A stretch of DNA of 36,735 nt, taken from a virus. Where the stretch lies: positions 1-36,735 of the IMG/VR virus record IMGVR_UViG_3300005530_000058, one strand, 5' to 3'. Below are positions 5,293 to 29,542 of this stretch, piece after piece (position 1 is the first letter of the stretch; each line of letters starts with the position of its first letter). The notes beneath the pieces are model-generated. The model saw only the letters and a program-made list of their open reading frames with translations, made no database searches and was not told the origin of the DNA. Made by a program: the position numbers and the translations under genes.

Positions 5293-6882
5293 GTGTTCCA
5301 CCACACCCCCAAGTTAAATTACATAGGGCTATCCCTTATCGTATCTAACCCCTCCCGCTTCGACACAAATGAACTGCTCTCAGGCAACTCAGGTCAATGG
5401 TATTCACAAGAGGTATTCCGTAAAGCCGGAATTAACCGTTACCAAATTGACATACTTGACTGCGACGAGTTTAATCGGATTGGACGAACTCTATATCCGG
5501 GTACAAAAGTAGTGCTCTTACTTGGGGAAAGAGCACAAAGAGAAGTTGGAGGGGTTACTACAACATTAGGAGAGAATCGTGGCAGTCCTATAGTGAAGGG
5601 TGGAATTGTATATATTAGTAGCTATCCTTACCAAGACTGTTTCGACATAGTTGACCATGAATCAAGGCTCAATCCGGCCCTCAATGGTGAGATTAACGAG
5701 TATGGTAATTTTGAGGGCGCGGATAGCGACTCTGAAGATGATACCGAAGATGCCAAGTCCCGTCATGGTAAAACCAAGCGCGGCAATTACCGCTTCTGGT
5801 TGACTAAGGATACACAGAAAGCAGTACGCATACTACGAGAAGGATTGCGCCAGCATGTCGAACCAACCTATAACATATACCCCTCATCCACACAAGTAAT
5901 TCACCAACTAGACTCACATGAAAACACCGATTTCTATTTGGATATTGAGACTGATAGTGATCTTAATATCACTTGCTTTGGCTTTTCATTTGGCGATGAG
6001 CCTACTGTTTTTGTTGTGCCTTTGCTCAGGTATGACTACAGTACTGCTTATAGCTGTAATGGAAATATACTCCGGTCCCTTTGCCGCGCCATGCAGAGGA
6101 ATACGACAGTGGCACACAATGGCTCTGGATTTGACTTCTTTGTTCTTCCTTTCAAGTACGGTATTCCTTTTGGCAAAAGTTTGTACGATACTATGTGTGC
6201 GGCTCACCGCTGTCATTGTGAAGTAGAGAAATCACTGGGTCATGTTATCTCTCTATACACTGATCTACCCTATCACAAAGATGAGGGAGTATTTGAACCA
6301 CAGAACTCTCAACAAGAACAAAGTCTATGGCAGTACAATGGCAAGGATGTTTTCGCTATGCGAGAAGTTAAGAAAGGAATCGAGAAGTATGCTCAATCTA
6401 TTGCTGGTTTACCTGAGAGTATTCAACAAGCGAACGAAAGTATACGACCTTACCTTACTGTAACCCTGCAAGGTATTCGATACGATCCACAAGAGATTGT
6501 ACGAACACTTAAAGAAAACGATAGGATAATGACCGCTCTGCTTAGGTTATCCAAGGCCGCGGTTGGCGATGCAATGCTTGAGGATATTCGCGGCGCGGGT
6601 AAGTCCAGTTTGTTGGGTAGCTCAGATCAATGTGTAAAATACTTCCATGATATTTGTGAATATCCAGTCATCTCTTATGGCAAGGAGAGGAAGAAAGGTA
6701 AGTATGCTGGTACACGTAGACCTAGCTTAGACGAGAAGAATTTCCTAAAGTTAGTAATGAAACTTACAGATAAAGGAATACGTAATCCGGTAGTAGACTT
6801 AGTGCTTGGGTATCGTGGGATTGCGAAGGAATCGAGCATGTTACAGTTCACTGCATGGCCCGGAATAAGGAGATTGAGATAA
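5293..6882 (+). CDS. DNA polymerase I-like, N-terminal part: UDG-like domain + 3'-5' exonuclease + start of polymerase domain
   Basis: A 529-residue product from a GTG start at 5293. Residues about 8-120 resemble a family 4-type uracil-DNA glycosylase fold: IVSNPS near the start, then GNSGQWYSQEVFRKAGI, VVLLLGERA and GSPIVKGGIVYISSYP. The DnaQ-like proofreading domain follows, with Exo I DIET (Asp217, Glu219), Exo II HNGSGFD (Asp281) and Exo III YNGKD (Tyr348, Asp352), all apparently intact. From about 385 the thumb-like start of the family A polymerase begins. The protein stops after QFTAWPGIRRLR, just before the segment that leads into motif A. The palm and fingers are in the separate gene at 7395. 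Residues about 138-163 form an acidic linker. There is no SD. Confidence 0.85.
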   Translation: MFHHTPKLNYIGLSLIVSNPSRFDTNELLSGNSGQWYSQEVFRKAGINRYQIDILDCDEFNRIGRTLYPGTKVVLLLGERAQREVGGVTTTLGENRGSPIVKGGIVYISSYPYQDCFDIVDHESRLNPALNGEINEYGNFEGADSDSEDDTEDAKSRHGKTKRGNYRFWLTKDTQKAVRILREGLRQHVEPTYNIYPSSTQVIHQLDSHENTDFYLDIETDSDLNITCFGFSFGDEPTVFVVPLLRYDYSTAYSCNGNILRSLCRAMQRNTTVAHNGSGFDFFVLPFKYGIPFGKSLYDTMCAAHRCHCEVEKSLGHVISLYTDLPYHKDEGVFEPQNSQQEQSLWQYNGKDVFAMREVKKGIEKYAQSIAGLPESIQQANESIRPYLTVTLQGIRYDPQEIVRTLKENDRIMTALLRLSKAAVGDAMLEDIRGAGKSSLLGSSDQCVKYFHDICEYPVISYGKERKKGKYAGTRRPSLDEKNFLKLVMKLTDKGIRNPVVDLVLGYRGIAKESSMLQFTAWPGIRRLR

Positions 6883-6883
6883 T

Positions 6884-7000
6884 ATGATAACCATAACACT
6901 CGATGATCTTGGGATGTTAATATTTACTACTGCATTCTTTTCATTAGTTGCAGGATTCGTAATTGGATTTCTATATCATAATCATAAGACCAGAGTATGA
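6884..7000 (+). CDS. Single-pass membrane peptide (38 aa)
   Basis: An ATG at 6884 opens 38 codons ending TGA at 6998-7000. It overlaps the next ATG as ATGA. AAGGAG lies about 11 bases upstream. The product has one hydrophobic helix (about 10-31; LIFTTAFFSLVAGFVIGF) and a short basic tail (HNHKTRV), so it should insert in the inner membrane with the C-terminus in the cytoplasm. It lies inside the break of the polymerase gene. Its role is unknown; superinfection exclusion and membrane anchoring are guesses only. Confidence 0.6.
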   Translation: MITITLDDLGMLIFTTAFFSLVAGFVIGFLYHNHKTRV

Positions 7001-7401
7001 CCATCCACATCCCCAACTATATTACGCGCGCATATATCACCGAAGCTAACCGCGCCCAAGGATTACTATTTCTTTATGGCGACACAGTAGGTCACGATGG
7101 CAACGGAGGACAAGCCTCTCAAGCAAGAGGTTGTGAAGGTGCTCATGTTATACCTGTAAAGTGGAGGAAGTGCTATAATGACGAGGATGCATTCTTCAGC
7201 GACTACAAGTATGACCTACAGGTTGCTCTTATCATGCGCGCACTATGTGAGTTACCGGAAGGCAAGCCGATAGTGGTATTTCCAAAAATCGGTTTGGGCA
7301 TGAACAAGATGGATGTGAAAGCCCCCCGGACGTATAGAGCTTTGATTAGTATATTGAGAGGATTGCCGGATGTTATTAATAAGGACTCTCTTCCATGTTA
7401 G
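6997..7401 (+). CDS. Conserved phage protein with GNGGQA motif (DUF7831-like)
   Basis: A 134-residue protein. The block YGDTVGHDGNGGQASQARG (about 27-45), then AHVIPVKW, AFFSD, and the C-terminal VVFPKIGLGMNKMDVKAPRT, matches a conserved phage/bacterial protein family. I recall it as DUF7831; the number is from memory. The Gly-rich loop with Gln-Ala suggests nucleotide or ADP-ribose-type ligand binding, but the activity is not known to me. It overlaps the membrane peptide gene by four bases and the polymerase palm gene by seven, so the three are translationally coupled inside the split polymerase locus. Confidence 0.7.
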   Translation: MTIHIPNYITRAYITEANRAQGLLFLYGDTVGHDGNGGQASQARGCEGAHVIPVKWRKCYNDEDAFFSDYKYDLQVALIMRALCELPEGKPIVVFPKIGLGMNKMDVKAPRTYRALISILRGLPDVINKDSLPC

Positions 7402-8408
7402 ACCAACCCCGCACCTCTACCCATTACGTAATCACGGGTGCTAAGACCTATCGCCTAAGCTCGCGCAAGATACTCAAACAGTGGGGCGGCAACTTGCAGA
7501 ATATCGAGAAGTCTAACCGTAAGCGTTTCCAACCCGATCACGGGAAGCTATTCGTGCAGGTCGATCAATCTGGTGCTGAAGCTTTAATAGTCTCGCATTG
7601 TATGCCCAAGACAAATAAGCTAAGACAGCTATTTGACAATGGCATCAAAATCCACAACTACCTTGGCGTAGTATTTACCGAGCATTGGCGGGCGCGGTTT
7701 CCTATGGTAGAGGATTTCATCAAGATACCGATTGCTGAGATTAGGAACCACCCTAAGTGGTCAGAGTTTGTAAAAGCGGTAGCGGATAGCGATGAAAATC
7801 CACCTGCAACAAGATACTATTACCACTATAAGCAGTCCGGTCATAGTTTCAATTATGGTTGCCAGCCTAATGCATTCATTGGCAATATCCTATTGAAGTC
7901 TAAAGGTAAGGTACAGTTGAGCCTCTCCCAAGGTATGCGATACTACGAAGGTTATCACGCACTCCTTCCAGAGATTCAGAATAACTACCATCGTTGGGTA
8001 GCTAGAACCTACGAGAAAGATGGTATATTGAGGAACTTGCAAGGTTTCCCGATTCATATCACATCTCGTGTATTCGAGCACAACTATAAAGAAATCTATG
8101 ACAAGATTCCCCAAAGTACAGTAGGTACAATTACCAACATTGCATTTACACAGACGCAGAGACTAATAGAAGAGGAACGATTGGAAGGGTGGGATATCAT
8201 TCAGAATAACCACGACTCATACTTGGGGCAGTTTCCTGAAGGAGAGGTAGAAACCGCGGCCAAGGTTATGTGTGACTTGATGGAGCAAGAAATGGTAAGC
8301 CCGTTTGGTGAAAAGTTCCGTATGAAAGCCAGCATTCAAATCGGAGGTAATTGGTGTCCCTTTCATCCTAAGAAGAATCCTAATGGTCTAGTAGAGGTTA
8401 AACTTTAA
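7395..8408 (+). CDS. DNA polymerase I-like, C-terminal part: palm and fingers
   Basis: A 337-residue protein carrying the family A catalytic core. RLSS...NLQNIEKSNR (about 20-42) is the conserved entry. Motif A is VQVDQSGAEALIVSH with catalytic Asp57. Motif B is R140...K146...NYG (residues 153-155). Motif C is NNHDS with His273-Asp274. AAGGA lies about nine bases before the ATG, so it is translated on its own. It joins almost seamlessly to the C-terminus of the 5293-6882 product, so the pair probably assembles into one polymerase. His150 occupies the O-helix position that is Phe762 in E. coli Pol I. HDS replaces the usual HDE of motif C. Confidence 0.88.
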   Translation: MLDQPRTSTHYVITGAKTYRLSSRKILKQWGGNLQNIEKSNRKRFQPDHGKLFVQVDQSGAEALIVSHCMPKTNKLRQLFDNGIKIHNYLGVVFTEHWRARFPMVEDFIKIPIAEIRNHPKWSEFVKAVADSDENPPATRYYYHYKQSGHSFNYGCQPNAFIGNILLKSKGKVQLSLSQGMRYYEGYHALLPEIQNNYHRWVARTYEKDGILRNLQGFPIHITSRVFEHNYKEIYDKIPQSTVGTITNIAFTQTQRLIEEERLEGWDIIQNNHDSYLGQFPEGEVETAAKVMCDLMEQEMVSPFGEKFRMKASIQIGGNWCPFHPKKNPNGLVEVKL

Positions 8409-8471: not shown

Positions 8472-9875
8472 ATGACCAACAAAGAACGCTACGATTTGGT
8501 ACTTAGAGATTCCACCAGCCCACAATCATTCAAAGACTATGCCTATTACTTCCTGATATCCACTTGTTTACAACGTCGAGTATGGCTTGGAGGTTTCGAT
8601 CCTAACGTGCCCGGACAACTATATCCAAACATCTATGTAATTCTCGTTGGTCCAGCAGGCTGTGGTAAGGGTAGAACTATCGGCCCGATTGCAGATATGC
8701 TTAAGTACTGGCGTATAGGTGACCTATTGACGGGTCAGATTATAGGTTACGACCCAGAAGTAGAACTCACCGAAGAGATAGAAGCGAAGCCGCTATTATA
8801 CACAAGCGGCCCCCAAGATTTGAGTTACGAGCAGCTTCTTCGTAGGCAAGCCCAGAGCATCCGATATTGTGATTGGACACGTAGCAGAGGGAGTACTACT
8901 AAACCAGCAGGCACACCTAATAAGTACGGCAGTAGTCCAATGTATTTTCTATTGGAAGAACTTTCCAGTCTATTCCACAAGGACGCTCGCCGCGTTAGTA
9001 AGTACCTTCTAACTGCCTACGATTGTAACGACTTCGAAAGGGATATTATATCGCGCGGCAAGGACGTATTAAAGAAACCATGCTTGAGCTTTCTTGCAGG
9101 AACTACCCCACAAGACCTAGAAGATCAACTAGACGAATCAGTAATCGGAGATGGACTCGCTTCCCGTACGTGGTTCATCTATGAAATGGTAGAAGGCCAG
9201 CGCTTATGGGGTTATCGTCCACCAGATGCTAACCAGAAAGCTGCCAAGGCCGAACTCCTTCAACACATTAAGTCTCTTGCATTCGTTTATGGTAGGTGTC
9301 ATTTCTCTCCTGAAGCCGATGCATACTTAAAGCATTGGTGGGAAGTTGAATCATTGGACAACCGGCCCAATAACTCACCCAAACTGGATACCTACTACAA
9401 ACGCAAAATCATTCACGTCTCAAAATTAGCAATGATTTTGAACTTCTCAGAGCAAACTACTAATTATGAAATCTCGTTGGAGTGTGCTCAACGGGCGCTA
9501 GAGATACTCGCCCAAGCAGAACGTAAGATGCACTACGCATTGAACTTCAAGGGACGTAATCCAATAGCACCTGCTGCAAGTAAAGCTCTTGCATTCATGT
9601 TCGAGTATCGGAAACCTGTTACGCTTGAGTATATTCTAGCAGCGGATGGGGGCGGATTATACAATGATGTGAATGAGATGGAAGCGAAAGAAATGATGCG
9701 TCACTTAATGGCAAGCGAGAGAGTATATATGCCAAAACCGGGTTTCTACTTTCCTAGTAAATTGAAGGGTAGGGAGAACATTGTAATATTAGGGAATGGA
9801 AAAGGGAATACCACAACAAGTGATATCCCCGGTTCTGAGCTTAAAGCTTTGCCTTTAGATAAGAGCCTGCTCTAA
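8472..9875 (+). CDS. DUF3987-type replicative helicase/primase-associated ATPase
   Basis: A 467-residue protein. The Walker A is VGPAGCGKGRT at about 59-69 (Lys66). The Walker B is YFLLEELSSLF (Glu162, Glu163). The wide separation, the FLAGTTPQDL region after it (about 208-217) and the C-terminal helical part match the DUF3987 family, which in phages lies beside DNA polymerase and is taken to be a replicative helicase or its loader. No primase motifs are visible. Residues 134-152 form a basic, Gly/Thr-rich insert. It is the last gene of the rightward arm. Its TAA overlaps the stop of the convergent giant virion protein gene. The ATG at 8472 has a G/C-rich leader without SD. Confidence 0.75.
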   Translation: MTNKERYDLVLRDSTSPQSFKDYAYYFLISTCLQRRVWLGGFDPNVPGQLYPNIYVILVGPAGCGKGRTIGPIADMLKYWRIGDLLTGQIIGYDPEVELTEEIEAKPLLYTSGPQDLSYEQLLRRQAQSIRYCDWTRSRGSTTKPAGTPNKYGSSPMYFLLEELSSLFHKDARRVSKYLLTAYDCNDFERDIISRGKDVLKKPCLSFLAGTTPQDLEDQLDESVIGDGLASRTWFIYEMVEGQRLWGYRPPDANQKAAKAELLQHIKSLAFVYGRCHFSPEADAYLKHWWEVESLDNRPNNSPKLDTYYKRKIIHVSKLAMILNFSEQTTNYEISLECAQRALEILAQAERKMHYALNFKGRNPIAPAASKALAFMFEYRKPVTLEYILAADGGGLYNDVNEMEAKEMMRHLMASERVYMPKPGFYFPSKLKGRENIVILGNGKGNTTTSDIPGSELKALPLDKSLL

Positions 9876-9878
9876 GGC
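9851..9878. terminator. Bulged hairpin across the convergent stop codons
   Basis: GCCTTTAGA (9851-9859) pairs with TCTAAGGC (9871-9878) with one bulged T and an 11-base loop. It covers the overlapping stops of the two arms. There is no T-run directly after it on either strand, so a bidirectional terminator is only possible. No other terminator is visible where the arms meet. Confidence 0.25.
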
Positions 9879-12800
9879 ACCATAGAAGACTTCGCTTTAT
9901 TGATATTCGATTGCAACACAAAATCCTCAATACGATTGACTGCTTCTTTTTCACCTTGAGTCTTTACCAAGTAATTATAATATGAAACAAACTCACTCGG
10001 ATTATCCTTCAAAGAAGGGGCAGTTTGGTACGAATTTGCCTTTAAACCTTTTAGGAAACGTATCGCCTTCTCAGGTTCAGTCTTTGCTTTATCTTGAAAT
10101 TTCTGCATCAATTCAGGCAATAACTCCACTGCCTCGCCAATATCACTTGTCTGTTTGTAGTTCTTCGATTCAGCATCCAAGTATTTATTGGACTGAGTGG
10201 GTTCGCCAGATGGACTACCTGTAAGCTCTCGATATACCCTAAGATCACGGAACTTATCAGAGCGTTCAACATCACCCTTAGAGATAGTATTATTTGCAAT
10301 CATTCTCGCGGCCTGAATGTTATGGGTAAGAACGTCAAGTGCGTACATCTTAGTAGCATCCCACACATCTGTACCTTGTTGCAATGCCTCAGCATAGTCC
10401 GCGGTTTTCTTCTCCAAATCCATAACCGTAGTCGCCGCTGGAAACGATACCATATTCCTTGGGGTACGACCTTTAACGAATATGTCGGAGATAGTTTTAG
10501 CTGAATCGGATACAATACCAGCGTAGTTACCGAGTTGCATAAGAGTGACTAGTTCGGATACGACATTTTTAGTACTCGCCTCTGCAAGTGTCTCTTTAAG
10601 GTCTGCATCTTGTGACTTCCTACCAGTCAATACCTTATTCAATTCCTGAATAGCTTCACCAGTTAATACGCTACCGAGTAGGTATGTGAGCATCGGCAAA
10701 CGATTACTACCATCCATGAATGGTTTATACACATCTTGATAGATCACATTAGACTTCTCGATGCCCCACTTCTGCAAGCTAAGGAATGGACTCAGGCTAC
10801 CCTCCATTACTGCCGCCGGTAGTCCACGTCCACCATAAGAACCTTGAACACGATCAACCAGATTCTTAGCCATTTGGTTAAGAGCATGGTCTAGTTCTTC
10901 TCCTTTTAGTTCTCCTATCTTATCCACTTCTGTCAGTCTTCCAAACTTCTTCAACCACTCCACCGCTTTCACATCTCCACTGCTCGCAGCTAGTATATTA
11001 TTACGAGCGAGTTCTTTACCTACAGAGAACGTGATATCTCTACCGAAGTTCTCAAGAGCTTCTCGACCTTGCCACTTGCGTAGAAGGGTAGCACCCTTAT
11101 TTAGAGTTGCGGTTATACGGTCTGGTGCTTCCAGCAGGTCACCAATCTGGTAACGATCGAGATTAGGTTTCTTAGCAGCATAACGCAAGGCGTTCGCAGA
11201 TTCATTTCGCACATTAGCTATTCCCTTAAGCGCGGCCCCAAAATCACCTAAGCGAGTCATGTATGGCAATGTATTCACAGGAATGCTCAATACATCCCTA
11301 ACTCCAGTGGCTGGTCCAAGAATCGCCGAGGTCACCAATCGAGCAAATGCATTAACCTTAGGGTTGAATCCGCTCTGTGCTCCCAAATTCCTTAACACTA
11401 CCTTCATTGAGTCGCGAATCTCTTTAGCTTGTGGTACAGAGTTATCGGCGGTATCAACACCTTCATCGAAAGCATTGGTATCTGGATTCTTCAACTTAAG
11501 TATCTTGCGTATCTCCGGTTTGCTCTCTATCTCTTGGTAGAATGCCAAATCCGCGGCCGCTCTCTTACCATATTTTGCGAGGTTCGCAATTACATTCTGT
11601 TCGCGCAGTGATTCAGGTAATCCTAGGCCCGCGGTTCTGCGGATAGCACCAAAGTCAATAGACCTATAGTTATTACGCTCACCTGATAGGGCATCAACAT
11701 GAGCATTAACATCTTTAAGCGCAGTATCGAAGTCGATACCCTTATCGGTTACATCTTCAATATACTGTGCCCACTCACGCTTTCGGGCTTTAGCTTCTGG
11801 AGTGTTGGCTCGATTTACAAACAAGTCGAGCGCGGTATCGGACAATTGTGAGGGTATATAGTTCTGATTCTTACCAGCTTCGCGACCTTCGATTTTAATA
11901 CCAAGTTCACGACGGATATCAGCGATATCTCCTAGATAAGATTTCAATGTATCGTAAATCGCTGCGCCATCCTTAATGCCACTCACATCTATTGAGCTAT
12001 CATCCCTTGTTTTCCACTTCTCTAGCATCTTCTCTTCTACATACTTCACATTACTCTCGTCAAACTTCTTCAGATTGCTTACCAGTTCTTGTGCTCGTCC
12101 GATATATTGATCTTGTCGTGTCTCGAAGTTCTTGAATGACTCGGCAGCCGGTATGGATACTCTCGCGGCTTGATCGAACTGCGCTTCCGCGGGTTTGAAG
12201 AAACCTTTGCGAGTGGTGTCAATGGAGTCTATATCGGTGGGTTCTTGTTCCACTTCACTTAGTCGCTTACCTCCACTCTTCTGATATCCTTCCGGTGTAT
12301 GGCCACCAAAATACTTATTCTTAGTATCTTCCAATGCTCGCCACACACCCTTAAACTCCGGCGACTCAAAATCCATGTTAGGATCTTTCATCATTTCCGA
12401 AATCTTCTGGTAGTGTTCGTTGTATAAACGAGTGCCTTCTTCGGTATTACGTCCAACATCCTCGGTGGGTTGTTGCTGAATGTCCTCTCGTCGCACATAT
12501 CTATTCCTCGCCGGTTCCGTATCCTTAAAGCGTGCCTCTTCATTACCCTGTCGAATCTCTTCAAGAGATGGTTGTTTAGTGGGGCCGCCCTCAACTGCTT
12601 CTCGCATGTTTTGGAATGGAGTTCTATCTACTTCTCTCTGTTGATCTACAGGTTGTGCTATTGGGGTTCTAATCGCACCCACTTCCACACCCCTACTGGT
12701 TCGCCCATGAGTGAATCTATTACCAAGCCATCTGGCGAAGTCGTCAGTAGTTGCCTTCGGACTATTGAAGTTCGACCGATACCAACTTACCAAATCTTTC

Positions 12801-14596
12801 TTAACGCTACTATCCCTTTCCAACATTCGCTTAACATCCACATCTCCAGACCGCTGTGCAAGATATTCAAACTCAGGTGTAATACTACCATTACCCGGTT
12901 CCCTACCCTGAGCACGCTCGTTGCTTATCCACCTCTGCACCACTGGATCCTTTTCCATTGTGCTCTGGATATGGGCACGTTGTGCCGCCGGTAGTTCATC
13001 TGCTAGGATATGCGAGAATTCATGTGTAACCGTATCGGGTTGAGTTCCTGTAGCGCGTACTTTATTAGCACCCTCAGCATATCCATACACCTGCTTACCC
13101 TCAGGAGTAGTTATGGTTTGTCCGGGTTCGTAGGCAAAGTCAACTCCTTGATGTTGTCTAGCGCGTGCTTCATTGAGAGCAACCAGATTTTCACGAGTCC
13201 GTGGTTGTACTTGCTGTTCAGGTAGTTGTCCAATGCCTTCGACATTTCCCTTTGCAATTGCTTCTCGGTCACGTTTGAGTTGGTCTTTAGCGAGTTTGAG
13301 TTTCTGCTTACGGAGTTCGATGGATTCTTTTTGTGCTTTAAGTTCTTCATAAGACAGTACCTTATGTTCTTGTTCGAGATTAGCTTTCTCTTCTTCTACA
13401 TCTGCATGATTCTGTTCTGGAGATTGATACCTATCGCGCGTGTTACCCTCTAGGCGACGCATCTCTAAATCCGCGGCCGACTCTTGTGCATTTGCAGTGG
13501 CATCTGCTTCCATATTACCAGTGTAATCTGGGTAAATCTCCTTACCAGTCTCAGTCGTGACTATAGGTTCTGGCCGCGCTTCTGGATGTGCAGCAAGCTG
13601 TCTTGCTTTCATCAAGTCTGGATTCGCCTGTAAAGCTTCTTCTACTCGTGCCTTTACATAATCTTCTGCCCGAGGATTCCTTTGTGATTCGATCAATGAC
13701 CTAACCGGCCCCTCTGGATTAGGTGAAGTAGTGTCCTGTACATTACCATGCTCATCACCTGTGAACCTCGGTTTGACAAGTTCTCGATATGCTAACTCAT
13801 CTGCCGGTATCATACCCTCATGTGCAGCCGCGGTTCCGGGCATGTATGGATGAACACCAACCATTTGTGCAATGGCAGTTGGGCGATGTAATGCAGCACC
13901 GCCCAAAGTATTCAACAAGAGTTTACCTACATCGAAAGGTTCCGGCGATGTAGTCTGATCGTAGATATCTTGCGCTGCACCTAGACCTGCACCGATACCT
14001 ATATTTTGTCCGGCCGGTGAGGCAAGGACTTGACCTACAGAACCAACTACACCACGCCCTGCGCCAAATGCCTTAACCGCGTCCCTAACCATACTCGGAC
14101 TAGGACGCATTCCTAATGCTTGTGCAGCAAGGTTACCGCTTATAGCAGCATAAGGATGCTCAGTATTAGCTTCAGCAGTCTGCTGTAGGAATTCCTTACC
14201 TACATCACTCTGATTGAGGATTGCTTCTTGTCCTTTGGCAGCGGTAATTGCTCCCAAGATTCCACCCATAATTGTAGCACCTCCATGTGCTATCTGTCCA
14301 AATGGTGGCGGAATAGCCTCAAGCGGAGCCGCGGTTACTGCCGATGTAGCAGCACCAGAAGCAAGGCCACCTAGCATCGGTACAATACCTGTAGCTACAT
14401 TACGACCAAAAGTACCTGAAGCGGTGTGCTTCTGACTGCTACTGTCAGGGATAGGTTGTGATGGTACAGGTACTGGTGTGCTGCGTGGTACTACATCAAA
14501 CGTCTCATCGGATATGTCAAATCTATCAGGATCATAACCTTGATTAACAAGTGCGCGACGTTTGACTTCTGGTGAAAGTGGTTCTAGGAGGGGCAT
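9872..14596 (-). CDS. Giant internal virion (ejection) protein with HEFSH metallopeptidase motif
   Basis: A 1574-residue protein, the last gene of the leftward arm. In order: a polar N-terminus; a Gly/Ala-rich hydrophobic stretch (about 66-120) that could insert in membrane; a charged coiled-coil-like region (about 395-450); a zinc-peptidase motif HEFSHILADE with His525, Glu526 and His529, followed by EFEYLAQ as a possible third-ligand helix; then long helical, charged regions. A hydrophobic segment near residue 1100 (TSAILGPATGVRDVLSIPVN) leads into a helical C-terminal region of the large polyvalent protein type. Such proteins sit inside podovirus heads and are ejected with the DNA. The peptidase could cut scaffold or virion proteins, or periplasmic targets. 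No lysozyme motif was seen. Confidence 0.75.
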   Translation of the reverse strand: MPLLEPLSPEVKRRALVNQGYDPDRFDISDETFDVVPRSTPVPVPSQPIPDSSSQKHTASGTFGRNVATGIVPMLGGLASGAATSAVTAAPLEAIPPPFGQIAHGGATIMGGILGAITAAKGQEAILNQSDVGKEFLQQTAEANTEHPYAAISGNLAAQALGMRPSPSMVRDAVKAFGAGRGVVGSVGQVLASPAGQNIGIGAGLGAAQDIYDQTTSPEPFDVGKLLLNTLGGAALHRPTAIAQMVGVHPYMPGTAAAHEGMIPADELAYRELVKPRFTGDEHGNVQDTTSPNPEGPVRSLIESQRNPRAEDYVKARVEEALQANPDLMKARQLAAHPEARPEPIVTTETGKEIYPDYTGNMEADATANAQESAADLEMRRLEGNTRDRYQSPEQNHADVEEEKANLEQEHKVLSYEELKAQKESIELRKQKLKLAKDQLKRDREAIAKGNVEGIGQLPEQQVQPRTRENLVALNEARARQHQGVDFAYEPGQTITTPEGKQVYGYAEGANKVRATGTQPDTVTHEFSHILADELPAAQRAHIQSTMEKDPVVQRWISNERAQGREPGNGSITPEFEYLAQRSGDVDVKRMLERDSSVKKDLVSWYRSNFNSPKATTDDFARWLGNRFTHGRTSRGVEVGAIRTPIAQPVDQQREVDRTPFQNMREAVEGGPTKQPSLEEIRQGNEEARFKDTEPARNRYVRREDIQQQPTEDVGRNTEEGTRLYNEHYQKISEMMKDPNMDFESPEFKGVWRALEDTKNKYFGGHTPEGYQKSGGKRLSEVEQEPTDIDSIDTTRKGFFKPAEAQFDQAARVSIPAAESFKNFETRQDQYIGRAQELVSNLKKFDESNVKYVEEKMLEKWKTRDDSSIDVSGIKDGAAIYDTLKSYLGDIADIRRELGIKIEGREAGKNQNYIPSQLSDTALDLFVNRANTPEAKARKREWAQYIEDVTDKGIDFDTALKDVNAHVDALSGERNNYRSIDFGAIRRTAGLGLPESLREQNVIANLAKYGKRAAADLAFYQEIESKPEIRKILKLKNPDTNAFDEGVDTADNSVPQAKEIRDSMKVVLRNLGAQSGFNPKVNAFARLVTSAILGPATGVRDVLSIPVNTLPYMTRLGDFGAALKGIANVRNESANALRYAAKKPNLDRYQIGDLLEAPDRITATLNKGATLLRKWQGREALENFGRDITFSVGKELARNNILAASSGDVKAVEWLKKFGRLTEVDKIGELKGEELDHALNQMAKNLVDRVQGSYGGRGLPAAVMEGSLSPFLSLQKWGIEKSNVIYQDVYKPFMDGSNRLPMLTYLLGSVLTGEAIQELNKVLTGRKSQDADLKETLAEASTKNVVSELVTLMQLGNYAGIVSDSAKTISDIFVKGRTPRNMVSFPAATTVMDLEKKTADYAEALQQGTDVWDATKMYALDVLTHNIQAARMIANNTISKGDVERSDKFRDLRVYRELTGSPSGEPTQSNKYLDAESKNYKQTSDIGEAVELLPELMQKFQDKAKTEPEKAIRFLKGLKANSYQTAPSLKDNPSEFVSYYNYLVKTQGEKEAVNRIEDFVLQSNINKAKSSMVP

Positions 14597-17177: not shown

Positions 17178-17681
17178 TTAGTTCAATGCTCCTCTCTCTG
17201 ATTGTTGTGGAAAATTAACACAAGCAAATTCTCCGAAATACTTACGTGCTGCTTCATCATATGCACGACCAGCCTCTTCTTCAGTATAGAAATAGCCAAG
17301 AGAAATTTCCTTATAGTTAACCATTATTCTTGCATGATATCGTTTTTGTCTTCCTTTAGAAGATTTTTTAGATACTCCCTTACATCTGCAAGTAACATGC
17401 TCAGAGACAGTCTTTGGGGTATTGAAATGATTTTGTTGTTTAGTACAAACTCTTAAGTTTTCTTTTGAGTTATTACAAGTATCTCCATCTTTATGATCTA
17501 CCCATTCACCTTTTTGAGCTTTTGCAATAATTCTATGTAAAGACGGAGAATCTGCACCGCTCAAATGGAATGTCTTATGTTGCTTATTGAAAGTCAATAG
17601 CTGTGTAAAATAATGACTGTCATCTTCATCAAGAATAAGAGTCACTCCAAAGCTTGGATAATATTTAGAAACTTGATTCAT
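17178..17681 (-). CDS. HNH homing endonuclease with AP2 DNA-binding domain
   Basis: A 167-residue protein. The HNH nuclease core lies at about 48-84 (LHRIIAKAQKGEW, then VDHKDGDTCNNSKENL with Asp62-His63 and the trailing Asn residues). An AP2/ERF-type DNA-binding domain covers about 101-157 (KGVSKK, YHARI, LGYFYTEEEAGRAYDEAARK). This pair is a standard free-standing phage homing endonuclease. It is wedged between two virion genes with only one or two bases on either side. It is a selfish element that would cut genomes lacking it at the site. Its DNA looks more AT-rich than its neighbours, in line with separate origin. Confidence 0.9.
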   Translation of the reverse strand: MNQVSKYYPSFGVTLILDEDDSHYFTQLLTFNKQHKTFHLSGADSPSLHRIIAKAQKGEWVDHKDGDTCNNSKENLRVCTKQQNHFNTPKTVSEHVTCRCKGVSKKSSKGRQKRYHARIMVNYKEISLGYFYTEEEAGRAYDEAARKYFGEFACVNFPQQSERGALN

Positions 17682-21179: not shown

Positions 21180-22331
21180 TTAGAGTGAAGCATAAATCCA
21201 AACTTGCCAATTAGTTACATCAGCAATAGCACCAAAAGGACCACCAGCTTTAGGACGAATCATATAGCCAGTCCCTGTACCTCCAACATCTACGCTCGCA
21301 TATACATTAGTTACGTCCGCAGATATTCCAAACGAAACAAAGTTCGTAGAATTAATACCTATAGAAGTAATACTAATAAGATCGTTGGCATTATAACCAT
21401 TAAGAGCACCGCCGGATATGTTCTTCACATACCCAATCAATACTCGTGGGGTTGCCGCAAGCCCATGTGCAATAGATATAATACCATCGGCAGCAGGAAG
21501 AGTTCCCAGTGAGCCAAAGAATGGAGTAGTTTTAACCCAGCTAGTTCCATCAGACCTTATAGCATCTCCAGAAGTTCCGGGAGTAGCCAATTTGTTAAGT
21601 CCTATTGTATGAACTGGGAATAGTGAACTAGAAGAATCATCATTAGAAGCAGCTTCAATGACTCCCGTTAAGGGATTTGCTCGCAAGATATATCCAGCAG
21701 TCCCATTTACAAGTCGATCATAAGTTAAGCTATTAGCAGCTATTAATCCTGTGACACTAAGAGCTTTCCAGATAGCAGTTCCAACAGAGCTACTATAGGT
21801 TAATACCATTCCATCGGTTGCAGTAGAGATATCCAACTTATTTGGTTGAAGTGTAGCCGCACCAATTACCGTAGCTGCATTAACTACTTCCACATATTGT
21901 CCTGCTGCATCCAATCGCACTAGAAAGTTCGACTTCGTTGCGTCTGCACTGCCATCTTGCTTATATGCGATCTTGCTCGAACCGGCCCCATTAAGTATGG
22001 ATACTGCATATGTGGCAATTTTGGCCGCGGTTATGGAGTTATCTGCAATAGCTAGTGTGGACCAATCGGCATAGGTATCTGAAGGGTAAGTTCCTTGGTA
22101 GATTTTAATCAATACATTATTCGCATCCTGTATATCGAGCCAAATATAACGTATAAACCGAGGGTTATTTGTTACATCAGGATGAGCACCGGCTGCACCT
22201 GACATAAAGATAACTTCTCCGATATTGGACAATGGAGCAATCTGGTTGACCATTGCCATTAGCTGCGCTTTACTCACACTAGTGAGGCCGCTTATATCGA
22301 AACCAGACTGAAAATCAAATTGAAGACTCAT
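21180..22331 (-). CDS. Tail fibre / receptor-binding protein (383 aa)
   Basis: A 383-residue protein, Ala/Gly/Ser/Thr-rich and beta-prone. The N-terminus (MSLQFDFQSGFDISGLTSVS) probably attaches it to the virion. The middle shows fibre-like repeating turns (ITAAKIATYAVSILNG, LIAANSLTYDRLVNG). The last 100 residues start with ISIAHGLAATPRVLIGYVKN, the H-x-L-G/A-x-x-P motif common in phage fibre tips that bind receptors, and end with a Trp-containing strand. It would contact the host surface. It is a likely receptor-binding protein together with the LamG protein immediately upstream. Confidence 0.68.
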   Translation of the reverse strand: MSLQFDFQSGFDISGLTSVSKAQLMAMVNQIAPLSNIGEVIFMSGAAGAHPDVTNNPRFIRYIWLDIQDANNVLIKIYQGTYPSDTYADWSTLAIADNSITAAKIATYAVSILNGAGSSKIAYKQDGSADATKSNFLVRLDAAGQYVEVVNAATVIGAATLQPNKLDISTATDGMVLTYSSSVGTAIWKALSVTGLIAANSLTYDRLVNGTAGYILRANPLTGVIEAASNDDSSSSLFPVHTIGLNKLATPGTSGDAIRSDGTSWVKTTPFFGSLGTLPAADGIISIAHGLAATPRVLIGYVKNISGGALNGYNANDLISITSIGINSTNFVSFGISADVTNVYASVDVGGTGTGYMIRPKAGGPFGAIADVTNWQVWIYASL

Positions 22332-23884: not shown

Positions 23885-24247
23885 TTATTTAGGCAACGAC
23901 TGAATAATATCTTTCATAATTTCCAATGCCTTAATTGCATTCGTTCCGCTCGATTCAGTATTCAAACCAGATTGACCTACACTCTGAGATTTCGCCCCAA
24001 GACTCACTCGCTGTTTATCTATGGTATTCTTACCATCGAATAGGGTAGCAGATTTCACTGTAGTAGACTTCTCTTCAAATGCCACTACGCTTGGCTGCCC
24101 CGGCACTGTAACTACTACCGGATTTTTCTCGTTCATCGCTACCGTATTCCGTGCGCAACTGGTTAATATCAGAATAGCGAACGCGGCCATTGCTAGATTG
24201 CAAAGATACGTTTGTATTACTATCGGTTGCAATTTGATTTTCATCAT
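23885..24247 (-). CDS. o-spanin (Rz1-like outer-membrane lipoprotein)
   Basis: A 120-residue protein starting inside the i-spanin gene in another frame. Residues 1-31 form a lipoprotein signal: basic start, hydrophobic core (LAMAAFAILILTSC) and lipobox LTSC with Cys31 as the lipidated residue. The mature part is polar with a helical end (NAIKALEIMKDIIQSLPK). It overlaps the upstream gene by 173 bases, as Rz1 overlaps Rz. The pair would bridge periplasm and fuse the membranes at the last step of lysis, so the host should have an outer membrane. The mature part is longer than many Rz1 proteins. Confidence 0.75.
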   Translation of the reverse strand: MMKIKLQPIVIQTYLCNLAMAAFAILILTSCARNTVAMNEKNPVVVTVPGQPSVVAFEEKSTTVKSATLFDGKNTIDKQRVSLGAKSQSVGQSGLNTESSGTNAIKALEIMKDIIQSLPK

Positions 24248-24502: not shown

Positions 24503-24952
24503 TTAAAAATTCAATTTTTGCTTTCTATAAAACATCTTATTACTTTCATAAAAATAAATATCAACAATTCCAATAAGACTTGTATCCCTCCAAATAACTA
24601 AATCAATAGACTCTTCAAGGATTTCATCTGGATAAATATAAAAAGTGAAATGATTAGAATAGATTAAATAATTAGGTCTCCAATTTATAATTACCTCTTC
24701 TGATTGTATGGATTCTAAATTCTCAGTATTATAAGCAGTAACACAGAAATAGTAATTAATAAAAGGTTCAATACCAATCGGGATATAATTAGTGTTACTT
24801 AATATATCTTCATTATAATTATAATCCCTACTACTAAGACCTCTATAAATTTTATATCCAGCTAGATCATATTCTGTATTACTATCCCAGCTTATAGAAG
24901 CTGATATAATATTAAATACAAAAATAAAAAATATAAATTTCACGGAATACAA
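24503..24952 (-). CDS. Exported fibronectin type III-like protein (149 aa)
   Basis: A 149-residue protein. Residues 1-20 (MYSVKFIFFIFVFNIISASI) are a hydrophobic signal peptide. The mature start reads ISWDSNTEYDLAGYKIYRG, followed by INYYFCVTAYNTENLESIQS, the opening and closing strands of a fibronectin III domain (W, then GYxIYR, then Y-x-V-x-A-Y). The C-terminal 45 residues are aromatic-rich strands. The DNA is conspicuously AT-rich. It overlaps the SGNH hydrolase gene by 13 bases. It would be exported to the periplasm or beyond in the infected cell. Its role is unknown. Confidence 0.7.
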   Translation of the reverse strand: MYSVKFIFFIFVFNIISASISWDSNTEYDLAGYKIYRGLSSRDYNYNEDILSNTNYIPIGIEPFINYYFCVTAYNTENLESIQSEEVIINWRPNYLIYSNHFTFYIYPDEILEESIDLVIWRDTSLIGIVDIYFYESNKMFYRKQKLNF

Positions 24953-25692
24953 TTAAGCCTTCCAACATTAAGATTAATAGCACTTGTAGTTCTTAAGCCA
25001 TTAGTATAAGACAAGTTAAAAATCACATTTGCTGCAATTACTTGATAACCTAAAGTTGTTGGATGAATTGTATCCGAAGATATATATGTATAGTCTGGAG
25101 GATTATACGGTAGTAAAGAAGCATTATCTTGGACTTTCCAAACCAACCTACGATTTGCTAATAAATAACTATTTATCAAAGCTCTCCAGACTGGATAATT
25201 ATAGCTACTCGCACTATCATTTCCTTGCTCCGTAATCGTGAACGCATAAACGCATACATTAGAAGACCCAACTTGAACTACATGATTACTCCAAGCTGCA
25301 CACCACGCAAGAGCATCATTAGTAACCCCAGTTCCGGTATAATACTCAGGTAAATCTAATGCGCTATGAGATTGATTATGATTAACTCCGGCCATTAGAA
25401 AATAAATCTTTGGCCCGGGATATATATTATTTGCTAAGTTCGATTGCACTAATGGCCATTGATTGCTGATTACCATTCCTAAACTATAACCATTTTGAGC
25501 GTAGTTATATTGCCAAGCAAATTGTAAATTAGGCTGTGCTATTACATATTGAGGCCATGAAATTCCTGTATAATTAGTTACAGGACCAGCCGAGAAAGAA
25601 TCACCAACAATAATAGCTAGGTTTGTATTATAGGATTCTACAGCATTTAATTGTAGAATTAAAGTAAGTAAAATTAAAATCTTATTGACCAT
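24940..25692 (-). CDS. Exported SGNH/GDSL-type hydrolase (250 aa)
   Basis: The start at 25692 (MVNKILILLTLILQLNAVES) is chosen because it gives a clean signal peptide. A 25-residue upstream extension in the same frame would bury it and overlap the previous gene further. SGNH blocks are visible: block I GDSFSAG (Ser32), block II Gly in AQNGYS (about 68), block III GVNHN (Asn104) and block V DTIHP (Asp207, His210). It is likely an esterase removing acyl groups from surface polysaccharide, LPS or peptidoglycan. Fusion to a tail fibre is the usual phage arrangement. Here it is a separate exported protein. Three cysteines remain in the mature part. Confidence 0.75.
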   Translation of the reverse strand: MVNKILILLTLILQLNAVESYNTNLAIIVGDSFSAGPVTNYTGISWPQYVIAQPNLQFAWQYNYAQNGYSLGMVISNQWPLVQSNLANNIYPGPKIYFLMAGVNHNQSHSALDLPEYYTGTGVTNDALAWCAAWSNHVVQVGSSNVCVYAFTITEQGNDSASSYNYPVWRALINSYLLANRRLVWKVQDNASLLPYNPPDYTYISSDTIHPTTLGYQVIAANVIFNLSYTNGLRTTSAINLNVGRLNCIP

Positions 25693-26284
25693 AAATGCGG
25701 ATAATAGGATTTCTTCCCGTCGTTGTGGGCGCTCCATTTTGGCATACAGAACCAAGCCAGTTTTCAAAAGAACCTATAAGTGTGCCACCGGAAGTAGCAA
25801 ATTCAATAGTAACGAAATTGGAGCCGTCATCGCCGCCATCTTGCCTAACAATTTGAATGTCGTAATGAGTAGTAGTATTAACGGCCAAAGGAGTTGAGAA
25901 GGTAAAATCATTAGTTCCAGAGCTTAACCCAGTTACAGTATCAGAAGTAGCTAAAAGTGTATTTCCAAGATTACAACTAGCACCATTAGTATTATAAATC
26001 TTGATTACATAATTAATAGCACTAACATTACCAACTACTGTTTGTACAACCATTCCTATTTTGCATATTGAATAATTCGCAGTTGGAAGAAACTCTCTAA
26101 ATCCTACGCTATGATTACTAGCGTCACCAATAGCACTAGCATTTCCTGTAGTTACATAATTTGTATCTTTTAAAACACAACTACCACCGCTTCCACTAAC
26201 ATTCTTATGCTCTGCAAGTAAACTAAAATTAGCTTGTCCAGCACATACTAAGCAACCAAAAAATAATATAATAAAAATTTTCAT
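25682..26284 (-). CDS. Exported beta-sandwich-like protein (200 aa)
   Basis: A 200-residue protein with a signal peptide (MKIFIILFFGCLVCAGQANF). Cleavage is probably near Ala18; a lipobox reading at Cys11 is less likely because the signal would be too short. The mature protein is Asn/Thr/Gly-rich with alternating strands (YVIKIYNTNG, THYDIQIVRQDGGDDGSN) like carbohydrate-binding or fibre-type jelly rolls. It starts one base inside the stop of the upstream gene (TAATG). No catalytic motif is visible. Confidence 0.62.
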   Translation of the reverse strand: MKIFIILFFGCLVCAGQANFSLLAEHKNVSGSGGSCVLKDTNYVTTGNASAIGDASNHSVGFREFLPTANYSICKIGMVVQTVVGNVSAINYVIKIYNTNGASCNLGNTLLATSDTVTGLSSGTNDFTFSTPLAVNTTTHYDIQIVRQDGGDDGSNFVTIEFATSGGTLIGSFENWLGSVCQNGAPTTTGRNPIIRIYGQ

Positions 26285-27591
26285 TATTTTGTTACTTCAG
26301 CCCAAACATAAATATTACTACTTGTTGCAGTCTTTCTTCGCTGGTCCCAACATAAAATAAGATCTTGACTAGCAGTCGTAATAAACTGAGTTCCATTAAT
26401 AGTAGAGTTTGTAGATAAAAACTTTATTGTTTTATCACAAAATAAACTAATAGTTCTAGCAGATGAATCAGAGGTAAAATACATACGGCCAGAAAATCCA
26501 ATAGCCGTGTTAGTTAGCAAAAGATTCACATTTCCAGAAGTATCATTAGTAACCGAAGCTAATGTATCTCTATTTAGAGAGAGAGTTAGCGAAGATGCGT
26601 GAGCATAATTAGTTACTACAGGTAAAGGATTAGTGACATTAAGAGTGCTCACATTAAAAGTATCGCTAGATATTGTGCCACTACTAATTAAATTATCTGT
26701 TACAATATACCCAATATTAGTTATTCCAGTAGTAAAACCAGAAAATGTTCCAGTGCCACCAGTGCCACCATTAGCAATCTTTACTAAACTTCCATCAGCA
26801 AGTTGACCAATAGTATTAACAGGAGAAGCATTAGAACTTATGCCTTGTGCTGTTATTGTTTCTGCAATTAAATCAACTCTATTACTTCCAATTTGCACTT
26901 CACCTTCATTTGCAGAGTCTCTTATAGATAGTTTAGCTGTTCCTGAACCTACAAGAGATAATAATACATCAGATATACTTATAATACCATAAGAAGATAA
27001 ATTTGAAATCGCTGGATTATCTTTAATAGAGATTTTCCCATTAGAGATATTAAGTTGGTTAGCATTAACTGTAGTATTAGGAGTCCTAACAAGTTGTCCA
27101 CCGGCAGTTTGACCTATACTATTAACTGGAGCATTATTAGAAGTTATATTAAATAGTTTAATTCCATCTCCAACTGTTAATGAAGATAATGTAGATAGAT
27201 TAGTAAACACAATATCATCATTCGCTACATCATAAAGAACTTTTCCAGAACCTCCAGAAATTCCAATAGTTATTGTTCCACCAAGAATAGGATTAGTAAT
27301 GGTAACACCATCTTTAATAGATACTTGTCCACCATTAGTAGAAATCTGTGTTGTATTTGGTACCAAAAGAACATTAGTCAGACTATCAATTACTAGTGGT
27401 CCAATAAAGTTATAGGCCCCAGTAAGGCTACCACTAATAACAACATTAGTACCACCAAGTCCAATAGGAGTAAAGTTCGGTTGCCCCGGATTACCCGGAA
27501 CGAATATAGGTCCATAAATAGGAGCCGCGGCTTCAAGGTTAACCATACCGAGCGCAACTACTAATACTGATAAAATCTTAGAGATATTCAT
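26284..27591 (-). CDS. Exported fibre-like repeat protein (435 aa)
   Basis: A 435-residue protein with a signal peptide (MNISKILSVLVVALGMVNLE, cleavage near Ala23) followed by a Pro/Gly-rich collar (PGNPGQPNFTPIG). The body is built of Thr/Asn/Ser/Gly-rich beta repeats, including two related units: NSIGQTAGGQLVRTPN and NTIGQLADGSLVKIAN, each shortly after a SSNA/TSNN stretch; and QVSIKDGVTITN and KISIKDNPAISN. This looks like a trimeric beta-helical fibre, yet a true tail fibre should not need Sec export. Gly-Thr-Gly-Gly at about 275-282 could be a hinge. The C-terminus is a Trp-containing strand. The DNA is AT-rich. Confidence 0.68.
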   Translation of the reverse strand: MNISKILSVLVVALGMVNLEAAAPIYGPIFVPGNPGQPNFTPIGLGGTNVVISGSLTGAYNFIGPLVIDSLTNVLLVPNTTQISTNGGQVSIKDGVTITNPILGGTITIGISGGSGKVLYDVANDDIVFTNLSTLSSLTVGDGIKLFNITSNNAPVNSIGQTAGGQLVRTPNTTVNANQLNISNGKISIKDNPAISNLSSYGIISISDVLLSLVGSGTAKLSIRDSANEGEVQIGSNRVDLIAETITAQGISSNASPVNTIGQLADGSLVKIANGGTGGTGTFSGFTTGITNIGYIVTDNLISSGTISSDTFNVSTLNVTNPLPVVTNYAHASSLTLSLNRDTLASVTNDTSGNVNLLLTNTAIGFSGRMYFTSDSSARTISLFCDKTIKFLSTNSTINGTQFITTASQDLILCWDQRRKTATSSNIYVWAEVTK

Positions 27592-27610
27592 TAGGGTATT
27601 TAGTGGGGGC

Positions 27611-27642
27611 GGTATCTTTCTTTTCTGAAGTTAAAAGATACC
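27611..27642 (-). repeat. 9-bp hairpin in the leader of the exported fibre-like gene
   Basis: GGTATCTTT (27611-27619) and AAAGATACC (27634-27642) form a perfect stem around 14 bases in the 96-base gap between genes. On the transcribed strand it is followed by G/C-rich rather than T-rich DNA, so it is not a standard terminator. It may be a processing or stability element for the downstream exported-protein transcript. Confidence 0.4.
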
Positions 27643-27687
27643 AGAAACAATCTTCACCTGAACAACACAATCAACTTAGCACCACAC

Positions 27688-28197
27688 CTAGTTTCTTGTG
27701 TAAATGAGCACCGTAGAGTTCGTCTGAGTAGTCAGAGTAATACCCTGTACGAAATTCAAATCCACTGGCCCCGTGCTAACATATCCAGCAGCGGCGGCAA
27801 CTACTGACAACGCCAATGGAACATTATTACTACGAGCACCAATAGTAAAATTGGTATGGTATGCACCAGCCAAAGTCACATTAGTTTGAATCAAGTACTG
27901 TGTGGAAGTTGCATACACGAAGATCGCATTGGTTTGCAAGTTCGTGAATAGCAATCCGGGGATATTAGTCTGCATCGTATAAGCAGGAGTCGTATACGTG
28001 AGCTGATTACTTGAGGTATCATAGAAGTTGACAGTGTTCGCCGCTGTCGGAGAGATCACATCAATTTGATATACACCTTGTCGGCCAATAACTATTACGT
28101 TAGTGCCCGCGGTTGCAAAGTTAGAACTAATGATACCAGCATCGCAAGCGAAACTAGCACCGATCAATCCAATTGTAACGAGAAGTTTCTTAATCAT
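27688..28197 (-). CDS. Exported small beta protein next to capsid gene (169 aa)
   Basis: A 169-residue protein with a signal peptide (MIKKLLVTIGLIGASFACDA, cleavage after about residue 20). The mature part is exceptionally rich in Thr, Asn and Val with repeated TN pairs (AGTNVIVIG, MQTNIPGLLFTNLQTNAIFV, IQTNVTLAGAYHTNF), a beta-sandwich-like pattern. It directly follows the capsid gene (34-base gap), where phages often keep a decoration or head-fibre gene, but such proteins normally lack export signals. No family is recognised. Confidence 0.65.
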   Translation of the reverse strand: MIKKLLVTIGLIGASFACDAGIISSNFATAGTNVIVIGRQGVYQIDVISPTAANTVNFYDTSSNQLTYTTPAYTMQTNIPGLLFTNLQTNAIFVYATSTQYLIQTNVTLAGAYHTNFTIGARSNNVPLALSVVAAAAGYVSTGPVDLNFVQGITLTTQTNSTVLIYTRN

Positions 28198-28231: not shown

Positions 28232-29542
28232 TTAGGTCCCAGTCGTGCCTCCATTACCACGAACACGTTTGAATATAATAGGAACAATATAACGAGGCTG
28301 CACTGCTTGACAACCCAATGTGAGCCAGCTAATCAATTGCAGGTAACGACCATACTTGTTAGTCTGTTGTGTAAGCGTACCAGCTTCATCAATACATGTA
28401 ATGAGCAGGTCTTTAGTCATCTGAATTTCACCATTCCAGATCATACGTCCAAAGCCTTCTGGCAATCCCTTACCGGCAAACGCGGCTGGAGGTGGCCCAA
28501 CTTCAATGGTATTGTAACCCTTAGCACCAACGAGGAATGCAACCTCATAAGGAGCATTGCCAAGTTCAGTGTAGGTAGGATTAGGCACTGTTTCACCAAA
28601 GTTCGGCATCGCCGGATTCATTTCAATGGTATCAGGCTGAGGGAATGTACCATCTGCGGCAATACGAATAGGCTTATCTTCAAGCTTACAAGTAATACGT
28701 CCGAAGATATCACCAGTGAAACCCGCGGTCACAATGTTAAGGTCAATGGCGCGGTTAGCTTTGAGGTAAGGATCGAATGCGAACCTACTATAAGCTTCAT
28801 CGCTTAGGACGAGACAATACTTACCAGTCAAGCCACCAGAACCTTTGGGCATATTGCTACCCATAAACACGGGCGCGCCAATGCTCGTGGACATGAATGG
28901 CAACAGGCGACTCAGTGTATCCATACTGAGATTGCCGGGATTACCTATCTCTGCGAGGCGCGCTTGAATCCATCCAGTAGTCTTGCCAGTCGTACCAGCA
29001 TCATTACCGTCTTGTGAATATGGTGCGCTAACACCTTCACCTTGCAGATCGGTAGTGCGGTTCGGCAACCATACGTATGGGGCGCGGTGGAATACCTTAC
29101 CACGAATAAAGATATCCGAGAAACGAGTAATCTTCTTCTGGATATCCTCACGTGTAGGCTCTACTGCACTACCCATGAAATCTTGGAAGTCAGGAAGGAA
29201 TTGCAGAACTTGTGACTCGAACTGATGCCCGTAGATGATTTCATCCACGCTAACATCGCGCACTTGAAATGTATCAAGTTTAGGTGTTCCCTGAATAGGA
29301 TTAGGGAATGCGAACTGGCGAAGGTTCGGGCTAGGCACCTTACGAACACCACGCATTGTGATACCCATATTCGGCTGCCAGCGAATACTACCAGTGAATT
29401 TAGACCAGATAGCGTATTCTTCGAGGTACTCGCATTGTGTTTTAGCGAGATAGAAGGGTAGCTTCTGGTAGAGGTTTACATCTTGTTGCGACCAACCAGT
29501 ACAAATTGACTGGTTAATCGCGGGAACTGTATAATTGGCCAT
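28232..29542 (-). CDS. Major capsid protein
   Basis: A 436-residue protein following the scaffold-like gene, the expected place and size for an HK97-fold coat protein of a short-tailed phage. Features include an extended N-terminal arm (about 1-60), a long helix-rich and then beta-rich middle, DIFGRITCKLEDKPIRIAAD, and a C-terminal WLTLGCQAVQPRYIVPIIFK. The ATG at 29542 has no SD and is immediately preceded by a long hairpin leader (29543-29613). The DNA here has visibly higher G+C than the exported-protein block downstream. Assignment rests on context, length and overall pattern, not on one signature motif. Confidence 0.82.
   Translation of the reverse strand: MANYTVPAINQSICTGWSQQDVNLYQKLPFYLAKTQCEYLEEYAIWSKFTGSIRWQPNMGITMRGVRKVPSPNLRQFAFPNPIQGTPKLDTFQVRDVSVDEIIYGHQFESQVLQFLPDFQDFMGSAVEPTREDIQKKITRFSDIFIRGKVFHRAPYVWLPNRTTDLQGEGVSAPYSQDGNDAGTTGKTTGWIQARLAEIGNPGNLSMDTLSRLLPFMSTSIGAPVFMGSNMPKGSGGLTGKYCLVLSDEAYSRFAFDPYLKANRAIDLNIVTAGFTGDIFGRITCKLEDKPIRIAADGTFPQPDTIEMNPAMPNFGETVPNPTYTELGNAPYEVAFLVGAKGYNTIEVGPPPAAFAGKGLPEGFGRMIWNGEIQMTKDLLITCIDEAGTLTQQTNKYGRYLQLISWLTLGCQAVQPRYIVPIIFKRVRGNGGTTGT

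Follow-up and report, generated by a model that had tools for sequence, protein, structure and literature searches.

Predicted Sec-exported proteins encoded next to the capsid-like gene of a podovirus-like phage clade

The particles of tailed viruses are assembled inside the cell, and because of this, export tags on fibre-, lectin- and enzyme-like genes are unexpected in their genomes. The tailed-phage proteins known to use the Sec system serve mainly in lysis or in superinfection exclusion. Among the lysis proteins, Sec use has been described for the signal-peptide endolysin of Oenococcus phage fOg44, for the SAR endolysins and for mycobacteriophage Ms6 (PMC6116005). The fOg44 endolysin, the SAR endolysins and the Rz1-type spanins are, like the predicted exports considered here, late phage proteins on the host Sec route, but in those cases a single enzyme or spanin is directed against the wall or the membranes, whereas the present locus encodes as many as five proteins resembling fibres, lectins or esterases and, in addition, a constant capsid-adjacent protein, all separately from the lysis genes. 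The superinfection-exclusion lipoprotein Llp of phage T5 is single, small and encoded by the phage. The proteins of the present block are likewise phage-encoded and predicted to be exported, and they may block receptors too, but they are not lipoproteins, and they differ from Llp in being encoded by several genes, in being adhesin-like and in belonging to the late structural region.

Outside the phages, the mosaic adhesive trimer (MAT) fibres of Bdellovibrio combine a signal peptide with a structure resembling phage tail fibres and with variable adhesive tips, and members of the MAT superfamily share a conserved beta-rich domain of about 130 aa immediately after the signal peptide and form trimeric fibres (PMC10769870). 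The MAT fibres are bacterial and used for predation, whereas the genes described here are phage genes beside capsid and lysis genes, and the likeness is one of description. The first protein of the block may also be likened to the cement and decoration proteins (KHP40, 7dou; the HFTV1 turret, 8qpg; Pam1, 7eel) by the place of its gene behind a capsid-like gene and, in a weak match of its predicted model, by a similar beta-sandwich topology. To our knowledge, cement proteins described so far have no signal peptides, their synthesis and assembly both taking place in the cytoplasm, whereas a signal peptide is predicted for the 169-aa protein at this locus. In genome plan, two INPHARED records resemble the genome analysed here, Caulobacter phage Kuura matching it and Manatee Spring phage ctMlz233 doing so more loosely: polymerase and DUF3987 primase genes face a gene for a giant protein or other late genes, and tail, capsid, portal and terminase genes follow. 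Unlike in the clade described below, the genes behind the capsid gene of Kuura and ctMlz233 have no signal peptide at their annotated starts, and searches of the open-licence literature brought up no tailed-phage clade described as having exported structural genes or a conserved export module behind its capsid gene.

The export block and its setting

By the window we mean the whole stretch of 36,735 nucleotides that was analysed. It represents most of one phage genome, since its bases 1-36713 match part of the IMG/VR contig 3300025912_000027 (48,115 bp) without a difference. The last 22 bases of the window mismatch this contig, whose own record starts with Illumina adapter sequence (CACGACGCTCTTCCGATCT, L009:1-19), an assembly-end artefact. 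The early genes lie on the plus strand and include those for an AAA protein, a split family-A polymerase and a DUF3987 primase, while the late genes on the minus strand have the order terminase, portal-like, scaffold-like and capsid-like gene, block, lysis genes, tail genes and a gene for a 1574-aa protein. The family-A DNA polymerase (5293-8408) is divided among three genes, one exonuclease-like, one of 134 aa and one with the polymerase domain, an arrangement also present in the four closest relatives. Among the tail genes an HNH endonuclease with an AP2 domain (17178-17681, GC 34%) resembles a free-standing homing endonuclease. The 1574-aa protein that closes the late region (9872-14596), versions of which measure about 2172-2415 aa in the relatives, contains no known domain, chance matches aside, and the PADLOC defence and anti-defence profiles gave chance-level Cas1 matches only in the window. 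The terminase is nearest to those of Akkermansia phages (30% identity), which at most hints at a Verrucomicrobiota host. The only match in a bacterial genome is RFVF01000144.1, a phage contig of 8 kb in a MAG that bears the label Proteobacteria; it was rejected as host evidence. All loci are metagenomic, and all results were computed from sequence.

Five adjacent minus-strand genes occupy positions 24503-28197 (Table 1), where a preliminary description had placed a block of exported late genes, and a Sec-type signal peptide (SP) is predicted for all of their products (5/5). The surrogate rule used for prediction combines a weight matrix of the von Heijne type with the hydrophobicity of the h-region and the charge of the n-region, and it fires on 0.85% of shuffled window proteins. 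Each of the five proteins has a positively charged n-region, an uncharged hydrophobic core and, according to the surrogate matrix, small residues at -3 and -1. When the 38 genes of the window were ranked by N-terminal hydrophobicity, the top seven were exactly the five block genes and the two adjoining spanin-like genes. Both the place of the five reading frames and the Sec signal on every product are thus upheld, the latter as far as the surrogate rule can tell.

The gene layout could be taken over from the preliminary description with two adjustments. The four distal genes overlap as described (-1, -11 and -4 nt), and three of the chosen start codons agree with the overlap of upstream stops; the 169-aa gene, which had been counted among the overlapping or nearly touching genes, stands 96 nt apart. 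The hairpin in this gap is not a standard intrinsic terminator because no T-run comes after it. The lengths of 169, 435, 200 and 250 codons stand, while the last gene, counted as 149 codons from an upstream TTG, more likely yields 146 aa from the GTG at 24943, since this codon overlaps the stop of the preceding gene (GTGA).

Table 1 Features of the block and of its surroundings in the window
Feature	Position	Strand	Basis
Putative major capsid protein, 436 aa, locus anchor	28232..29542	-	Gene order TerL, portal-like, scaffold-like, this gene
Constant protein with SP and predicted beta-sandwich, 169 aa (MIKKLLVTIGLIGASFA^CDA...)	27688..28197	-	SP rule, position, AlphaFold2 model
Intergenic stretch, 96 nt, with 10-bp hairpin (GGTATCTTTT...AAGAAAGATACC)	27592..27687	-	Border of native and foreign composition
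Predicted exported fibre-like protein, 435 aa, SP ...LEAAA^PIYGP, ANGGTGGTGTFSG motif	26284..27591	-	SP rule
Predicted exported beta-rich protein, 200 aa, weak DUF4082	25682..26284	-	SP rule; DUF4082 E 0.0068
Predicted exported SGNH/GDSL hydrolase, 250 aa	24940..25692	-	SP rule; Lipase_GDSL_2
Predicted exported FN3-like protein, 146 aa, GTG start	24503..24943	-	SP rule; fn3 E 0.0016
Inner-membrane spanin-like protein, 136 aa	24075..24485	-	phrog_739 Rz-like spanin E 0.0049; N-terminal hydrophobic segment
Outer-membrane spanin-like lipoprotein, 120 aa, lipobox LTSC	23885..24247	-	Sequence; weak phrog_812 Rz-like spanin
Small membrane protein, holin candidate, 94 aa	23588..23872	-	Position and hydrophobic segment only
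Tail protein with a LamG domain and no SP, 411 aa	22340..23575	-	Laminin_G_3 E 6.7e-18; orthologues in relatives
Tail-module fibre, without SP in the window	21180..22331	-	Alignment, genome search, N-termini

The nature of the distal products is indicated to varying degrees. For the 250-aa protein the SGNH assignment holds by profile and motifs: Pfam Lipase_GDSL_2 matches over profile positions 2-178 of 178 with E 8.7e-6, at 26.8 bits below the curated cut-off of 32.9, and the GDSFSAG, GVN and DTIHPT motifs are present and intact. The 146-aa protein may be fibronectin III-like (fn3 at 19 bits against a cut-off of 25; the Fn3-like PDB entry 3mpc at E 0.067). The DUF4082 match of the 200-aa protein reaches 16.8 bits, under the curated cut-off of 28.4, and for the 435-aa protein, which had been called fibre-like, no family match was obtained. 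Phmmer searches of the PDB with the 435-aa, SGNH and 200-aa proteins gave nothing useful.

Arrangement in related phages

Relatives were gathered by primase alignment and then by capsid alignments, the terminase alignment being too diverse for scanning. Scans of IMG/VR with the single capsid-like, SGNH, 169-aa and terminase proteins returned the same phage only, and tblastn searches with the block proteins one by one, covering 50,697 phage records, gave nothing apart from a weak FN3 hit to a Hoc-like protein, as annotated, of Moorella phage MCACPph1. Homologues of the capsid-like protein (32-52% identity) are present in about 16 IMG/VR contigs and in one MAG contig. The protein has no PHROG, Pfam or PDB match, so that the capsid label is given by position only, and a profile comparison with the Kuura capsid protein was negative.

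The gene directly behind the capsid-like gene is SP-positive in 15/15 contigs, the window included, and likewise in the MAG contig. Among the first four genes downstream of the capsid-like gene 43/60 are SP-positive, against 2/102 of the upstream genes of the same 15 contigs (Fisher p ~8e-23), with start codons treated alike in both sets. The counts show a conserved arrangement and not chance, and the SP is kept even where the capsid-adjacent proteins have only about 18-31% identity to that of the window. In a loose sample of about 75 more distant phage loci, SP runs of at least two genes were rare. One more distant contig has two adjacent SP genes of 138 and 302 aa (L094:11592-12873), which may be an independent case.

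As mentioned above, the first gene of the block is separated from the others, and the comparison with the relatives sets it apart as well. The capsid-adjacent SP gene is mostly of similar length to the 169-aa gene in the 15/15 contigs and in the MAG contig L116. Sequence homology is clear in G003, G005 and L116 and marginal in L122 and L123, and the remaining contigs are assigned by position, length and pattern. In the window, G003, G005 and L116 the homology begins after the SP, and the SP sequences in front of it differ. A non-SP gene of 104-144 aa that lies behind the 169-family gene in many relatives was considered as its homologue, without support from profile comparison. The 169-aa protein has no Pfam match. 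An AlphaFold2 model from 15 alignment rows, which replaced a first model from 6 rows (pLDDT 55), predicts a beta-sandwich in which the SP forms a helix (pLDDT 65, strand core 72-87). The best structural matches of this middling-confidence model are nucleoplasmin-type sandwiches, the HFTV1 turret (Z 7.9) and the KHP40 cement protein (Z 7.3); with Z of at most 8 they are no better than background or nucleoplasmin-type rows and may reflect a common arrangement of strands.

The four distal genes appear as an exchangeable cassette. Their GC content is 24-36% and their GC3 15-22%, compared with 43% for the genome as a whole; the composition of the 169-aa gene is native. Since the cassettes of the relatives mostly match the composition of their own genomes, the foreign composition is specific to the window phage. 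No homologue of the 435-, 200- and 250-aa proteins was detectable among the relatives. Positional counterparts of the 435-aa protein with an SP and a Gly/Pro-rich mature N-terminus occur in G003, G005, L134, L136 and L137, and the FN3-like protein has homologues in the L134 cassette (E 2.5e-10) and in L065 (E 3e-8). Elsewhere the predicted exported cargo consists of LamG, right-handed beta-helix, FN3/CHB_HEX_C (chitobiase C-terminal), choice-of-anchor Q and long fibre-like proteins.

Judged from their genes, these podovirus-like phages form a clade with a predicted export module behind the capsid-like gene, consisting of a constant SP gene, exchangeable SP cargo and lysis genes. The earlier proposal of a coordinated export block between capsid-like and lysis genes is thereby supported and extended to the relatives. 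The view of the block as one set has to be modified, as a constant gene of native composition is joined to a foreign cassette whose homology to the relatives' cargo is slight at best.

Lysis and tail genes beyond the block

Next to the block the two spanin-like genes overlap by 173 nt, and by sequence they have the features of a two-component spanin. In relatives a 154-aa protein with conserved Cys and His residues (GMCEEF ... GGHDT) is encoded at the lysis position (L101:4889-5353, with orthologues in G002 and G005 and weakly in G004); it was not seen in the window and is possibly a peptidase-type endolysin.

The tail-module fibre has orthologues in 15 other phages, and an SP is predicted in 6 phages and absent from 10, the window included. 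The SP-bearing orthologues are L124:14397-15506, L130:13631-14857, L101:6617-7732, L104:10562-11686, L105:2896-4026 and L108:3267-4421. Two relatives outside the set of capsid-bearing contigs, found via the primase and without the capsid region, have an SP on this fibre. A conserved N-terminal motif directly follows either the SP or the initiator Met. In the best topology of an adaptor-gene tree the SP state changed twice; one origin is also possible. The members of the family are taken to be virion fibres because the SP-less orthologue in L115 has a phage tail-collar domain. As the strongest pointer available, this family hints that exported proteins of the clade can be virion proteins, and it puts in question the statement of the preliminary description that export signals are normally absent from virion proteins.

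Possible roles of the exported proteins

We suggest that the module, as a set of Sec-exported adhesins and cement-type proteins, probably does its work beyond the inner membrane as infection ends. The block proteins would be produced along with the other late proteins, pass the inner membrane via Sec, lose their SP and take on their fold either in the periplasm or on the outer surface, and they may then serve, outside the cytoplasm, as adhesins and as enzymes that modify glycans. Two uses are conceivable, to which we give roughly equal weight. The proteins might bind, mask or de-esterify receptor glycans of the infected cell and of the debris it leaves, which would keep superinfecting phages and newly released progeny from sticking, or they might join the virions once the compartments have been merged by holin and spanins during lysis.

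Such an export requires that the hydrophobic starts are not membrane anchors, wrong start codons or products of chance. The use of a surrogate predictor and the picking of starts from ORFs leave room for an error of this kind, but the charged n-region, uncharged core and small -3/-1 residues in 5/5 products and in low-identity orthologues, the fit of three chosen starts to upstream-stop overlaps and the 2/102 positives among control genes make it very improbable indeed. It is also improbable that the genes are mere passengers captured from a host, i.e. bacterial secreted surface proteins akin to the Bdellovibrio MAT fibres or to anchor-type proteins, with leftover SPs and no role for the phage. 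The low GC content of the four cassette genes, the cargo domains typical of bacterial secreted proteins and the existence of SP-bearing, phage-fibre-like adhesins in bacteria (PMC10769870) would agree with capture. However, an SP gene at the same place in all phages examined, together with the 43/60 across a divergent clade, implies selection, the low GC is peculiar to the window while the cassettes of the relatives mostly match their genomes, and SPs are present on the phage tail-module fibre family too.

Action on the envelope, where exported binders and glycan modifiers would coat or edit the infected surface and the debris in the manner of a receptor-destroying enzyme, leading to superinfection exclusion and the freeing of progeny, is a serious possibility that we hold tentatively. 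The cargo includes an SGNH esterase, lectin, FN3 and beta-helix proteins, the cassette of the window is variable and compositionally foreign, and exported phage proteins working in the envelope are established, for example the fOg44 signal-peptide endolysin (PMC6116005). On the other hand, the genes lie among late structural and not among early genes, and neither the constant capsid-adjacent gene nor the gain and loss of the SP on the tail-module fibre is explained in this way. Attachment of cement- and fibre-like proteins, folded in the periplasm, to finished particles upon mixing at lysis is a possibility that we hold about as tentatively. The constant gene is placed where decoration genes often are, the predicted beta-sandwich of its product has some matches among cement and turret proteins, and the tail-module fibre family alternates between forms with and without SP while the mature N-terminal motif is unchanged. 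There is also a precedent in the P22 tailspike and several decoration proteins, which add to finished particles. Yet dilution at lysis would render such an assembly inefficient, the SP-less LamG and fibre proteins could be the receptor binders of the phage, the tail-module fibre of the window itself has no SP, and the structural matches of the 169-aa model are only at background level. We consider it rather unlikely that the clade builds part of its virion outside the cytoplasm, with the exported capsid-adjacent protein and interchangeable fibres, lectins and enzymes maturing in the periplasm and being added only at lysis.

A conserved module of several genes for predicted exports within the structural region, with a constant first gene and exchangeable adhesive or enzymatic cargo, points either to a new kind of host-surface management as infection ends or to virions that are completed outside the cytoplasm. 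The predicted exported set may also supply phage lectins, esterases and fibres that bring their export signals with them, and if completion of the virion outside the cytoplasm should prove true, the outer coat of the phage would be separated from the assembly of its head.
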